Shown: in pieces, positions 7,191-49,670 of the stretch
Layout: each line of letters begins with the position of its first letter
Numbering within the stretch: the first letter of the stretch is position 1
Source: an uncultured Pelagibacteraceae bacterium
GTDB taxonomy: Bacteria; Pseudomonadota; Alphaproteobacteria; Pelagibacterales; Pelagibacteraceae
Reading direction: 5' to 3'
Length of the DNA: 64,000 bases
NCBI GenBank assembly: GCA_902571925.1
Contig: CACGDW010000001.1
Location: forward strand, 21,483 to 85,482
Notes under the pieces: model-generated
What the model was told of the DNA's origin: nothing
Database searches by the model: none
What the model saw: the letters and a program-made list of their open reading frames with translations, nothing else
Made by a program: the position numbers and the translations under genes

Positions 7191-8501
7191 ATGCTTGAAA
7201 ATTATTTTAATTACAAAAAACATAAAACTGATTTTAAGACTGAAGTTATAGCTGGAACAACAACATTCCTAACTATGGCTTATATAATGTTTTTAAATCC
7301 ATTCATATTATCAGGAGAATTTGCCGGACCTGATAAAGGTTTCTTTGATTTCGGTGCAGTATATACAGCAACAATTTTAGCTACAGCTCTAGCATGTTTT
7401 ATAATGGCTTTTTACGGTAAAACTTGGCCTGTAGGACTTGCGCCTGGTATGGGTATTAATGCTTTTGTAGCTTTCGGAGTTTGTGCAGGAATGGGATATA
7501 CACCTCAAGAAGCTTTGGGTGCAGTATTAGTAGCTGGGGTATTATTCTTAATTATATCTCTTACACCTATCAGAGCTTGGTTAATCAACTCTATTCCAAA
7601 AAGTTTAAAGTTAGGAATTGGAGCTGGTATAGGATTATTTTTGGCAATAATTGGTCTTCAAATTATGGAAGTTGTTGTTGATAATCCAGTTACACTAGTA
7701 CAACTAGGTGACTTAAGTGATCCTCTAGTATTGTTGGGATGTGCAACATTTATAGCAATAATAGTTTTAGAAAAAATGAATGTTAAAGGTAATATTATCA
7801 TTGGTATTCTGGTGTTTAGTATCATTTCATGGGCTGCAGGTCTTGCTAAATTTAATGGTATTGCAAGTGCGCCACCACCAATGACTTATCTCTTTGATTT
7901 TGATCTATCAGCAGCCATGACTGCAGGTATGTCTACTGTGATATTTACATTATTATTCATAGACTTCTTTGATACAGCTGGAACTTTAACTTCGGTTGCT
8001 AATGTTGCGGGTAAAGTAGGAAAAGATGGAAAAGTACAAGATATCAATAAAGCAATGTTATCAGATAGTGTAAGTACTGTGGCTGGAGCAATGATGGGAA
8101 CTACTACTGTTACAAGCTATGTTGAGTCTGGAGCTGGTGTAAAGGCTGGTGGTAAAACTGGAATGACATCTTTAGTAATCGGTCTTTTATTCTTAGCATG
8201 TATATTTTTTGCTCCTTTAGCAACAAGTTTACCTAAACAAATAGACGGTGCAGCTTTGCTTTTTGTGTCAGTCCTTTTTATAAGGAATATTACTGACATA
8301 GAATGGAATGATATTTCAGAGTCAGCGCCTGCTATTCTAGCTATGATCTCAATGCCTTTGACTTATAGTATTAGTAACGGTATTGCTTTAGCATTTGTAT
8401 CTTATGCTTTAATCAAAATATTTACTGGTAAATTTTCAAGTACATCTCCAGCAATTTGGGTTATAGCAATATTAAGTGTCGTTAGTTTTGCTGTCGCTTA
8501 A
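7191..8501 (+). CDS. NCS2/AzgA-type purine permease
   Basis: A 436-residue polytopic inner membrane transporter of the AzgA (guanine/hypoxanthine/adenine) branch. The opening NYFNYKKHKTDFKTEVIAGTTTFLTMAYI and the internal GMGINAFVAFG and FIDFFDTAGTLTSVA stretches are signatures of this family. About twelve to fourteen membrane segments are visible. It has a strong ribosome binding site (AAAGGAGG). It faces a purine-type phosphoribosyltransferase across a shared terminator, so base uptake and capture as a nucleotide may be linked. Substrate could be hypoxanthine, guanine, adenine or xanthine. Confidence 0.92.
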   Translation: MLENYFNYKKHKTDFKTEVIAGTTTFLTMAYIMFLNPFILSGEFAGPDKGFFDFGAVYTATILATALACFIMAFYGKTWPVGLAPGMGINAFVAFGVCAGMGYTPQEALGAVLVAGVLFLIISLTPIRAWLINSIPKSLKLGIGAGIGLFLAIIGLQIMEVVVDNPVTLVQLGDLSDPLVLLGCATFIAIIVLEKMNVKGNIIIGILVFSIISWAAGLAKFNGIASAPPPMTYLFDFDLSAAMTAGMSTVIFTLLFIDFFDTAGTLTSVANVAGKVGKDGKVQDINKAMLSDSVSTVAGAMMGTTTVTSYVESGAGVKAGGKTGMTSLVIGLLFLACIFFAPLATSLPKQIDGAALLFVSVLFIRNITDIEWNDISESAPAILAMISMPLTYSISNGIALAFVSYALIKIFTGKFSSTSPAIWVIAILSVVSFAVA

Positions 8502-41004: not shown

Positions 41005-41033
41005 TTGACATACTAAATAACATCTTGTACAAA
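41005..41033 (+). promoter_or_regulatory. Sigma-70 promoter of metX
   Basis: A perfect TTGACA (41005-41010), a 17-base spacer and TACAAA (41028-41033, four of six -10 bases). Transcription would begin at about 41040, which is the first paired base of the riboswitch below. Confidence 0.7.
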
Positions 41034-41037
41034 ATTT

Positions 41038-41090
41038 ATGCGCTGATTTAACTGAATTGCGAGCGCTTTAAAAAAACCGCTAAAAAAGTT
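41038..41090 (+). ncRNA. SAM-II-type riboswitch upstream of metX
   Basis: The stretch ATGCGCTGATTTAACTGAAT ... TTGCGAGCGC ... CCGCTAAAAAAG follows the SAM-II (SAM-alpha) consensus. P1 forms between GCGCT (41040-41044) and AGCGC (41062-41066). The conserved GATTTAAC follows the first strand, and TTGC precedes the second. GCTAAAAAA closes the pseudoknot; GCG before AGCGC and CGC in CCGCTAA can pair. It sits 34 bases before metX, whose product makes methionine precursors. SAM-V shares this core and is the main alternative. A T8 run right after the core could take part in the switch. Confidence 0.87.
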
Positions 41091-41123
41091 TTTTTTCTCT
41101 CAATTCACATATCGGCTTTAATT

Positions 41124-42242
41124 ATGAATATTAAAGACAACATAAAAACGATTATTATTGAAAAGTCCTTAAAACTGGACTGTGGCAAAACTATAAATAA
41201 CTTTCCGCTTGCATACGAAACGTATGGTTCACTTAATAAGAAAAAAGATAACGCAATTTTGGTTTGCCACGCATTGACTGGTGATCAATTTGTTACAGGG
41301 TTAAATCCAGTCACAAAAAAAGATGGCTGGTGGTCTTACGCAGTAGGTCCTAGCAAATCTATAGATACAAATAAATATTTTGTTATTTGTGCTAACGTCA
41401 TTGGCGGATGCATGGGTTCATTTGGCCCAAGCCATATTAATCCAGAAACAAAAAATATATATGGTACAGATTTTCCTATAATTACTATTAATGATATTGT
41501 TAATGCACAGGTTAATTTGTTAGATCATTTTGGAATTAAAAAACTTTTTTCTGTTGTAGGTGGCTCAATGGGCGGAATGCAAGTTTTACAGTTTGTTAGT
41601 AATTTTCCTGAAAGAGCAAAAACAGCTGTACCAATAGCATGCACGTCTAGCCACTCTGCTCAAAATATAGCATTCAATGAACTTGGAAGACAAGCAATAA
41701 CTGCTGATCATAATTGGTCTGAAGGTAAATATTCCTCAAAAAACAAAGTTCCCGAAAAAGGTTTAGCTGTTGCAAGAATGGCCGCTCATATAACATATTT
41801 ATCAAAAAAAGGTCTTCAAGAAAAATTTGGAAGAAAATTGCAACAAAGAGATGATCTTAAATTTGGTTTTGATGCTGACTTTCAAATAGAAAGTTATTTA
41901 AGATATCAAGGTTCTGTCTTTGTTGATAGGTTCGATGCAAATAGTTATCTTTATATAACAAGAGCAATGGATTACTTCGATTTAGTTAAACAATTTAATG
42001 GCAATCTATCAAATGCATTTAGGAACTCTAAAACTAAATTTTTTGTAATATCGTTTACATCTGATTGGCTTTACCCTACTCAAGAAAATAAGGATATAGT
42101 TATTGCCTTGAATGCAATTGGTGCAAATGTTGGTTTTGTAGAAATAGAGTCAGATAAAGGTCATGATTCATTTTTGTTGGATGTTCCAGATTTTTTGGAA
42201 ACTCTTAAAAATTTTTTAGATAAATCATACCTTGAAAAATAA
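41124..42242 (+). CDS. metX: Homoserine O-acetyltransferase/succinyltransferase MetX
   Basis: A 372-residue alpha/beta-hydrolase that activates homoserine for methionine synthesis. The nucleophile is Ser148 in [36 protein letters not shown] (Asp) and KGHDSFLLD (His) complete the pattern. Expression is probably set by the riboswitch just upstream; no good Shine-Dalgarno sequence precedes the ATG. The MetX family contains both acetyl and succinyl enzymes, and I cannot separate them here. metW follows after 2 bases. Confidence 0.94.
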
Positions 42243-42244
42243 TT

Positions 42245-42841
42245 ATGAAACCAGAATATAAATTAATCTCCGACATGATAGAAACAAATTCTAGAGTATT
42301 GGATGTTGGATGTGATGATGGAACTTTAATGGAATTTCTTAAACAGAATAAAAATGTTGACATTCGAGGTATTGAAATATCAAAAGAGAAAGTTCAAACC
42401 TGTATATCCAAAGGATTGACAGTAATTGAAGGTAATGCAGAATTTGATCTTAAACAATTTCCAAATAAATCTTTTGATTATGTTGTTCTTGGTCAAACTT
42501 TACAAGCTTTTGTAAATCCAGAATTAGTTATAAATGAACTTCTTAGAGTAGGAAAAAAAGCAATTGTAACTATCCCAAATTTTGGGCACTGGAAAGTTAG
42601 ATTAAATTTAATGATAAAAGGTACAATGCCAGTAACCAAAACATTGCCTAATGAGTGGTATAATACACCAAATATTCATATGTGTACTATTAAGGATTTT
42701 TTTAAATTTTCTGAAACAATAGATTTTAAAATTTTTAAATCTCTAGCACTCATCAACAAAAATGTATCAAACATTAATAATTCTAATTTATTTACAAAAA
42801 ATCTTTTTTCAGAACTTGGGATATTTTTAATTGAGAAATAA
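42245..42841 (+). CDS. metW: MetW methionine biosynthesis protein
   Basis: A 198-residue methyltransferase-fold protein that partners MetX in proteobacteria. VLDVGCDDGTLMEFL near 20-34 is the SAM-like loop with the MetW-typical CxDG form; FDYVVLGQTLQ, VGKKAIVTIPNFGHWKVR and LPNEWYNTPNIHMCTIKDF are family hallmarks. It is two bases downstream of metX and one base upstream of gloB, clearly one operon. Confidence 0.94.
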   Translation: MKPEYKLISDMIETNSRVLDVGCDDGTLMEFLKQNKNVDIRGIEISKEKVQTCISKGLTVIEGNAEFDLKQFPNKSFDYVVLGQTLQAFVNPELVINELLRVGKKAIVTIPNFGHWKVRLNLMIKGTMPVTKTLPNEWYNTPNIHMCTIKDFFKFSETIDFKIFKSLALINKNVSNINNSNLFTKNLFSELGIFLIEK

Positions 42842-48186: not shown

Positions 48187-48537
48187 ATGGATAAAATCTC
48201 TGATTTAAAAAAAATCGTAATAGAAACCTTAGATTTAAATAAAGCACAAGATATAGTAAGTATAGATCTCAAAGATAAAAGTTCTATGGCCGACTATATG
48301 ATAATTGCAAGTGGAACCTCCTCAAGGCATATTCAGTCATTATCAGAGCAAGTGTTAGAAAAACTAAAAGACAAAGGAGTTAATGATTCTAAGATTGAGG
48401 GTAAAGATAGCTTAGAATGGAAATTAGTTGATGGTATTGATTTAATTGTTCACATCTTTCATCCAGAAAAAAGGAAGTTTTATGATCTCGAAAAAATGTG
48501 GTCTGAATTAATTCCAAAAGAAAAATTAATTATATGA
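48187..48537 (+). CDS. rsfS: Ribosomal silencing factor RsfS
   Basis: A 116-residue protein that binds L14 and blocks subunit joining under starvation. MADYMIIASGTSSRHIQSLSEQV, KIEGKDSLEWKLVDGIDLIVHIFHPEKRKFYDLEKMW is the conserved core. It normally precedes rlmH; here its stop overlaps the ctpA start (ATGA) instead. Confidence 0.95.
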   Translation: MDKISDLKKIVIETLDLNKAQDIVSIDLKDKSSMADYMIIASGTSSRHIQSLSEQVLEKLKDKGVNDSKIEGKDSLEWKLVDGIDLIVHIFHPEKRKFYDLEKMWSELIPKEKLII

Positions 48538-49670
48538 TAAAAAAAAGTTTAGGTATTTTACTTTTATTTTCAGTTGTATGTTTAGACTCAGTAAATTCTG
48601 CTGAGAAAGATATATATAAAAAAATTGATTTATTTGGTGAAGTACTTGAAAAAATAAACGAAGAGTATGTTGATGAGATAGACCAATCTGAGAGTATGGA
48701 CTCTGCTATCAATGGCCTTCTACAATCTCTAGATCCATATTCTGCGTATATGTCTCCAGAAATATTCAACGAGATGCAAACAGAAACAAGTGGAGAGTTC
48801 GGGGGATTGGGAATTGAAGTAAGTATGGAATCTGGTGTTGTTAAAGTTATATCTCCTATTGATGATACACCAGCATCTAGAGCAGGAATAAAAGCTGGAG
48901 ACTATATAGTGAAGATTAATGATACACAAGTTCAAGGAAAATCTCTAGCTGAAGCAGTAGATTTAATGAGAGGTCCAGTTGGCTCAGGAATTGAATTAAC
49001 AATTAGAAGAAGGGGTGAAAAAAAAGCTCTTACATTTAATATAACAAGAGAAATTATTCAAATTGCATCTGTAAAATCTGATCTTTTAGAAGATAATATA
49101 GGGTATATTAGGTTAACTTCATTTAATGACAATAGTGGCAAACAAATTGAGAAAGAAATTAAAAAATTAGAGAAAAATAAAAAGGTAAAATCTTATATTT
49201 TAGATTTAAGAAATAACCCGGGAGGTCTACTTTCTCAAGCAATAAAAATCACTGATTTTTTTTTAAATAATGGTGAAATAGTTTCTACAAAAAGTAGAAA
49301 ACCTTCAGAGAATCGAAGGTGGTTTGCAAAACAAGGAGATTTAACAAATGGAAAAGCATTAATTGTTTTAATAAATTATGGTTCTGCATCTGCTTCTGAA
49401 ATTGTTGCTGGTGCTTTGAAAGATCATAAAAGGGCAATTTTATTAGGTGAAAATAGTTTCGGAAAAGGCTCAGTACAATCAATCATACCACTTAAAAATG
49501 ATGGTGCAATCAGATTAACAGTTGCCAAATATTATCTTCCTTCGGGAAAATCAATTTCTGATGTTGGTGTATCACCTGATATTGATATTAGTGAAGAAAC
49601 GGATGATTTTAAAATAAAAACTGATACTGATAACCAATTAAGTTACGCTATTAAGTTGCTCAACGGATAG
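48534..49670 (+). CDS. ctpA: Carboxy-terminal processing protease (S41)
   Basis: A 378-residue periplasmic serine protease. An N-terminal signal peptide (LGILLLFSVVCLDSVNSA) is followed by a PDZ domain (about 85-170) and the S41 domain. The catalytic dyad can be placed by alignment to E. coli Tsp as Ser286 in SASASEIV and Lys311 in FGKGSVQ. It is shorter than most alphaproteobacterial CtpA (about 440) because the C-terminal tail is reduced. rppH follows after one base. Confidence 0.94.
   Translation: MIKKSLGILLLFSVVCLDSVNSAEKDIYKKIDLFGEVLEKINEEYVDEIDQSESMDSAINGLLQSLDPYSAYMSPEIFNEMQTETSGEFGGLGIEVSMESGVVKVISPIDDTPASRAGIKAGDYIVKINDTQVQGKSLAEAVDLMRGPVGSGIELTIRRRGEKKALTFNITREIIQIASVKSDLLEDNIGYIRLTSFNDNSGKQIEKEIKKLEKNKKVKSYILDLRNNPGGLLSQAIKITDFFLNNGEIVSTKSRKPSENRRWFAKQGDLTNGKALIVLINYGSASASEIVAGALKDHKRAILLGENSFGKGSVQSIIPLKNDGAIRLTVAKYYLPSGKSISDVGVSPDIDISEETDDFKIKTDTDNQLSYAIKLLNG

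Follow-up and report, generated by a model that had tools for sequence, protein, structure and literature searches.

The window, that is, the whole stretch of 64,000 nucleotides that we analysed, holds a SAM-II aptamer between a predicted promoter and the gene metX, and the RNA between aptamer and gene carries two short strands complementary to the aptamer itself. Counts for leaders refer to a sample of 99 distinct metX leaders from the same genus (n = 98 for some counts), which are related to each other and do not amount to 99 independent tests. The features are the following.

41005-41010, + strand: -35 hexamer TTGACA, read from the sequence
41011-41027, + strand: 17-base spacer, read from the sequence
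41028-41033, + strand: -10 hexamer TACAAA, weak, matching TATAAT at 4 of 6 positions
41005-41033, + strand: predicted promoter (-35, spacer and -10), from the sequence and the same-genus leaders
41040-41090, + strand: SAM-II aptamer (RF01726 31.9 bits, RF00521 30.3 bits)
41040-41044 with 41062-41066, + strand: P1, 5 pairs
41050-41053 (AACU) with 41087-41090 (AGUU), + strand: P2a, 4 of 4 pairs in the window
41045-41049 GAUUU, 41057-41060 UUGC and 41079-41084 GCUAAA, + strand: core, read from the sequence
41045-41052 GATTTAAC, 41057-41060 TTGC and 41079-41085 GCTAAAA, + strand: core elements as DNA, read from the sequence
41082-41087 A6 and 41088 G, + strand: between the core and T8
41089-41096, + strand: U8 tract (T8), directly 3' of the pseudoknot; a T-run of 7-9 in 94/98 leaders
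41097-41107, + strand: strand A (CUCUCAAUUCA), complementary to 41053-41063 (UGAAUUG-C-GAG)
41111-41116, + strand: strand B (AUCGGC), complementary to 41042-41047 (GCUGAU)
41124-42242, + strand: metX, homoserine O-acetyltransferase (NCBIfam NF001209, 522 bits, cut-off 331)
42245-42841, + strand: metW, operon gene 3' of metX (TIGR02081, 232 bits, cut-off 189.5)

The start codon of metX, read directly from the sequence, is the ATG at 41124. The first base of P1 (41040) lies 7 nt past the -10 hexamer, and the 5' end of the RNA is predicted to fall at P1 or just before it. The initial annotation had described a strong promoter at this place; the TTGACA, the 17-base spacer and the start near P1 stand, while the word "strong" does not, since the -10 hexamer agrees with TATAAT at only four of its six positions. 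It is absent from a consensus promoter scan because it lacks the final T. Other leaders of the genus have TTGACA at equal spacing, mostly with a 17-base spacer and a 6-nt gap from the -10 to P1. All 50 of the 50 same-genus leaders that were located via MetX protein homology and reach far enough upstream share the TTGACA, the spacing and the aptamer, and an arrangement repeated in all of them is therefore not due to chance. A promoter at P1 is also normal for SAM-II, because the original description reports that a near-consensus promoter is usually found a few nucleotides 5' of P1 (PMC1273637). The core elements GATTTAAC, TTGC and GCTAAAA, as well as the A6-G-T8 run without a Shine-Dalgarno sequence, lie where the initial annotation had placed them.

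Next, we asked to which class the aptamer belongs. It has the fold of an H-type pseudoknot, that is, a P1 hairpin whose loop pairs to the 3' tail as P2, and no more than one of the four P2a pairs is lost in 93/98 leaders. The SAM-pocket nucleotides GAUUU, UUGC and GCUAAA are all present, they are invariant in an alignment that includes the crystallised RNA, and the SAM-binding nucleotides are intact in 99/99 leaders and P2 in nearly all of them. As in other SAM-II contexts, methionine-pathway genes (metX and metW) lie 3' of the aptamer. At gathering thresholds, no SAM riboswitch was found when the whole window was scanned with Rfam. At relaxed thresholds the locus matches RF01726 (SAM-II) with 31.9 bits (cut-off 44, E 2e-4) and RF00521 (SAM_alpha) with 30.3 bits (cut-off 36, E 4e-5), and our own covariance model, R1, gives 83 bits at the window locus, the window row being itself part of R1. 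Where listed genomes of the genus have no R1 match, a complete metX is missing too, so that these cases are assembly gaps.

Note that an Rfam gathering threshold is a curation cut-off and not a biological trait. RF01726 matches with an E of 0.01 or less occur in 119 of the 297 genomes of the family; a minority of these matches is coding noise, and none reaches the gathering score, so that automatic annotation overlooks every SAM-II in the family. Even the locus that contains the crystallised SAM-II RNA in exact form falls short (34.1 bits against a cut-off of 36). Since scores are below threshold throughout the family and even for the crystallised RNA, the failure to pass the cut-off is no argument against SAM-II membership. 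SAM-V (RF01826) scores 18.9 bits (cut-off 41, E 1.1), which is noise, and the SAM-V at metY of the same genome reaches 84.1 bits. The proposed SAM-II identity, for which a covariance search with the Rfam SAM-II and SAM-V models had been suggested, is thus borne out by a sub-threshold match to the former and noise for the latter. Judged by its sequence, the aptamer is an ordinary SAM-II, and this copy presumably binds SAM. Weak second RF01726 matches in the g4 and g1 genomes were discarded as coding-sequence noise; the real g4 leaders were later located with R1. We also see SAM-II 5' of metF-like and metW-like genes (L194, L196 and L236 in g9; L192, L195, L199 and L216 in g5), where the metW-like leaders have short AT-rich hairpins and no GC terminator. 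Elsewhere in the window, an Rfam match above the cut-off to the Rickettsia sRNA Rp_sR47 (49206-49514, - strand) lies antisense within a gene (48534-49670, + strand) that plausibly encodes a C-terminal processing peptidase, and is probably due to protein-coding conservation rather than to an sRNA.

The part of the leader that departs from the known pattern lies beyond the U-run. The target of strand A (41053-41063) takes in the UUGC pocket as well as the 3' strand of P1, and the sole free position of strand A faces the unpaired C41060. In the minimum-energy fold of the window leader the aptamer is gone, and both strands are paired to it, strand B with a predicted pairing probability of 0.98. 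About 97% of the 99 same-genus leaders carry CYCnCAATTC 3' of the U-run; the U-run, CYC, one free base and CAATTC form a near-invariant block in these 99 leaders, in which the spacer to the ATG varies from 9 to 23 nt, and strand A is retained while MetX identity drops to about 75%. Strand B is less regular: 72% of leaders, as compared to 26% of shuffled ones, can form 5 or all 6 of its pairs, and the strand is absent in a minority of leaders, those that are short. Two-sided covariation for strand A, looked for across the order, was not found: the strand was seen in this genus alone, where it and its target hardly vary, and for comparison we turned to the genera that bear terminators. Nor is strand A a motif that is widespread in the genome: within the 64-kb window, CTCnCAATTCA is confined to the two arms, and the genome has just one further site, at an unrelated place (3 sites in all). 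The initial annotation had proposed that the A7 run may pair with the T8 run in an alternative fold; this pairing is indeed predicted, but it forms just the inner portion of a more extensive refold, to which strands A and B also belong.

How do the related genera regulate the same gene? Intrinsic terminators are found in the SAM-II-metX leaders of g3 (17/17), g4 (11/11), g2 (5/5), g6 (2/2) and g8 (1/1), so that all 36 of the 36 scored metX leaders from these five sister genera have a terminator plus an antiterminator. The terminator is typically GCCCAGUUUAGCUGGGC-U9, and UUUAGC in its loop is complementary to GCUAAA of the aptamer core, which is the classical antiterminator arrangement. On the other hand, no intrinsic terminator lies between P2 and the ORF in any of the 99 metX leaders of the window's genus, and a hidden terminator was likewise rejected (0/99). 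The metX leaders of g7, g9 and g12 have no terminator by the strict rule, but they do have short AT-rich hairpins. The aptamer loop is always CUGAAUUGC in the window's genus (the 99 leaders were gathered by a pattern that fixes the loop letters, and 50 of 50 leaders found by protein homology fit the same pattern), as compared to 11 forms in genera without strand A; the loop is therefore frozen exactly where a complementary strand exists. Occlusion of a Shine-Dalgarno sequence was rejected too, since none is seen ahead of metX in the window and only 5/98 leaders have anything like one, in line with the earlier remark that the usual SAM-II way of hiding the ribosome site is not evident here.

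The terminators of the sister genera also touch on the model SAM-II RNA. The 2QWY RNA has been classed among the rare translational SAM-II RNAs (PMC6061858; PMC10907184). We find this exact 52-nt RNA at L184 (1486-1561, - strand), L238 (5503-5554, - strand) and L239 (7044-7095, + strand); its sequence, taken from PMC8494917, has identical copies in two Pelagibacteraceae records and another at L184. In all three places GCCCAGTTTAGCTGGGC-T9 comes directly after it, and the metX start assigned by protein homology lies past this terminator. An AUG after GGGG lies upstream of the homology-matched start, in frame with metX. The loop of the terminator (GCCCAGUUUAGCUGGGC-U9) complements the GCUAAA core, and 11/11 g4 metX leaders carry the terminator. 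Going by these sequences, the 2QWY type of SAM-II, the textbook translational example, may really be a transcriptional switch.

To quantify the interaction between the aptamer and the downstream strands, we compared it with dinucleotide shuffles. In the window the interaction energy is -9.9 kcal/mol as compared to -3.8 kcal/mol for the shuffles (z -5.6, 0/100); the 99 leaders have a median z of -4.4, and 98% of them lie below -1.5. In a length series, folded with a thermodynamic model that ignores the pseudoknot, the energy of SAM binding and marine ions, the probability of P1 stays at about 0.9 (0.91) from an RNA end at 41096 up to the emergence of base 41105, and pairing of strand A then reaches 0.79 at 41108 and 1.0 at 41117. 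In these folds strand A wins once it is transcribed, and therefore the finished leader should not bind SAM and the choice should fall during transcription. Comparison of the leaders together with these computations shows an aptamer, a lost terminator, conserved complementary strands and, as predicted folds, two mutually exclusive states.

We propose the following mechanism. Transcription would start at P1, so that the aptamer is made first, and SAM could bind only before 41097-41107 leave the RNA polymerase, an interval that U8 perhaps lengthens. Without SAM, strand A would invade the aptamer loop and P1, strand B would capture the 5' core and U8 would zip onto the A7 of L3; the aptamer would be permanently destroyed and metX would be ON. 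With SAM, the pseudoknot would hold, both strands would stay free and metX would be OFF, most likely by pairing of strand A (CAAUUCA) with the metX start region (AUGAAU). We infer SAM binding at this locus, the kinetic decision, the OFF state with SAM and the blocking of the start codon; OFF with SAM is assumed because feedback logic asks for it.

The last step deserves a closer look. With the aptamer held, strand A forms on average 5.2 pairs with the metX start region, as compared to 1.8 pairs with the starts of other genes, and this pairing is slight in one third of leaders. The start context AUGAAU is ancestral and is also seen in genera without strand A. The median cost of opening the region from -20 to +15 is 5.8 kcal/mol with the aptamer held and 8.3 kcal/mol with the leader free, and AUG exposure is 0.43 and 0.53, respectively. 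Since the opening cost is not higher in the held state and AUG exposure is nearly equal, the models argue weakly for start-codon blocking. Predicted accessibility is ambiguous and predicted strand-start pairing supportive, and sequestration of the start codon appears to be the likeliest of several outputs.

Potentially, the output could work in other ways, and we infer the route among start-codon blocking, termination at the pseudoknot and U8, and the action of Rho or RNase E. The SAM-stabilised pseudoknot and the abutting U8 could together act as an intrinsic terminator, with strand A merely locking escaped transcripts against late SAM; without SAM, the pseudoknot would be too weak and the polymerase would pass. 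A U-run of 7-9 abuts P2 in 94/98 leaders, the sister genera rely on termination, and for another class a terminator-embedded aptamer is on record (PMC6478431). Yet strand A, which this explanation does not need, is conserved as well as the U-run, and it lies 3' of U8 and so can have no antiterminator role; P2a has just 4 pairs, mostly A-U, plus triples, and the available excerpt of PMC5069961 does not name metX among the mRNAs that rise under sulfur limitation. We consider this explanation rather unlikely, and still less likely one in which SAM, by holding the aptamer, leaves the pyrimidine-rich U8-CUCUCAAUUCAC open to attack by Rho or RNase E, so that metX is turned off by termination or decay, and in which the same segment is hidden inside the anti-aptamer hairpin without SAM. 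The segment is indeed rich in U and C, free of G and predicted to be single-stranded only when the aptamer is held.

It could also be that the aptamer is idle, the anti-aptamer fold always winning in the finished RNA and metX being constitutive. The median P1 probability of 0.08 in the folded full leaders agrees with this, as does the SAM-II half of the bhmT tandem, which is inert in the full-length RNA (PMC11508383). However, an idle aptamer should decay, whereas here the SAM-binding nucleotides are kept throughout the sample and P2 nearly so, and we regard this explanation as highly improbable. Our preferred reading, which we hold to be moderately probable, is that in the SAM-II switch of metX(-metW) in this Pelagibacter genome an ancestral terminator/antiterminator was replaced by an anti-aptamer strand that works by the mechanism proposed above. 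A more specific form of it is less probable: a one-shot, co-transcriptional SAM-II with neither terminator nor Shine-Dalgarno sequence, in which a reading interval of about 20 bases is followed by irreversible erasure of the sensor, which fixes the state of the start codon, and which would have replaced termination at the base of Pelagibacter.

Several known systems can be compared with this switch. A SAM-II ahead of metX (SAR11_0217) was reported for 'Ca. Pelagibacter ubique' HTCC1062 (PMC2704228), and we found no description of its expression platform in the literature searched. It is the orthologous switch, with the same aptamer, promoter and gene. One of our genomes (G086, with loci L132 and L143) we take to be HTCC1062: its bhmT tandem (L143) lies at the published coordinates, and the orthologous metX leader (L132) has U7 and CTCACAATTC. 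SAM-II with terminator and antiterminator is known from A. tumefaciens metA (PMC1273637) and S. meliloti metZ (PMC9373788). These and the SAR11 sister genera share with the window the aptamer class, the gene family, the promoter position and the proposed OFF state with SAM, but the window has no terminator, and its strand lies beyond the U-run and targets L1 and P1 instead of GCUAAA. Translational SAM-II (2QWY, and Group 1, the direct occlusion class of PMC10907184) has the same pseudoknot fold and a near-identical core, whereas the window has no Shine-Dalgarno sequence in P2.

The closest parallel is the SAM-II/SAM-V tandem of bhmT, in which a downstream linker masks SAM-II (PMC11508383). In both cases sequence 3' of SAM-II refolds the aptamer, and the published masking fits a co-transcriptional choice at metX. 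However, the bhmT linker (L143) forms a terminator and pairs with CUAAAGCG through its loop, while the strand in the window is terminator-less and pairs with L1 and P1; within HTCC1062, too, the masking strand of the metX leader differs from the bhmT linker strand. The linkers of the tandems (L143 of HTCC1062 bhmT; L087, L091 and L113-L117) are terminators with the loop CGCUUUAG, and the complementarity of this loop to the SAM-II core CUAAAGCG gives a simple sequence explanation for the published masking. Such tandems are also found 5' of metY in genera g2 and g4. In addition, 22 same-genus leaders have a SAM-II-like motif directly 5' of SAM-V, at metY and probably mmuM, for example L177 361-411 (in the window's own genome, G000:C12 about 8360-8410) and L144 about 284-331 (metY of HTCC1062). 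Its invariant core reads GCCGATTTG..CCTATTGC.GGC..GCTAAA..GGA, it scores only 18.9 bits with RF01726, and it is followed by AUCGG, which complements its CCGAU. We interpret it as a candidate cryptic SAM-II-like/SAM-V tandem at metY and probably mmuM; no report of such a motif upstream of SAM-V at these genes was found in the literature searched.

In summary, the SAM-II aptamer before metX, the gene and the placement of the promoter are already known. A terminator-less anti-aptamer platform was not found in the literature searched, outside of which lies Poiata 2009, the key SAM-II/SAM-V paper, and an earlier description is possible; within this scope, our results point to the anti-aptamer strand at the metX SAM-II as new and to a mode of switching undescribed for SAM-II. 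In the genomes that carry it, the model SAM-II RNA, taken as the prime example of direct occlusion of the ribosome site, lies ahead of an intrinsic terminator. Pelagibacter ranks with the most abundant ocean bacteria, and its control of sulfur metabolism leans heavily on riboswitches. With the metX platform one can readily test why SAM-II appears inert in the full-length bhmT tandem and, if our reading is true, such a conserved, self-erasing platform would add a new mode of output to the SAM-II class.
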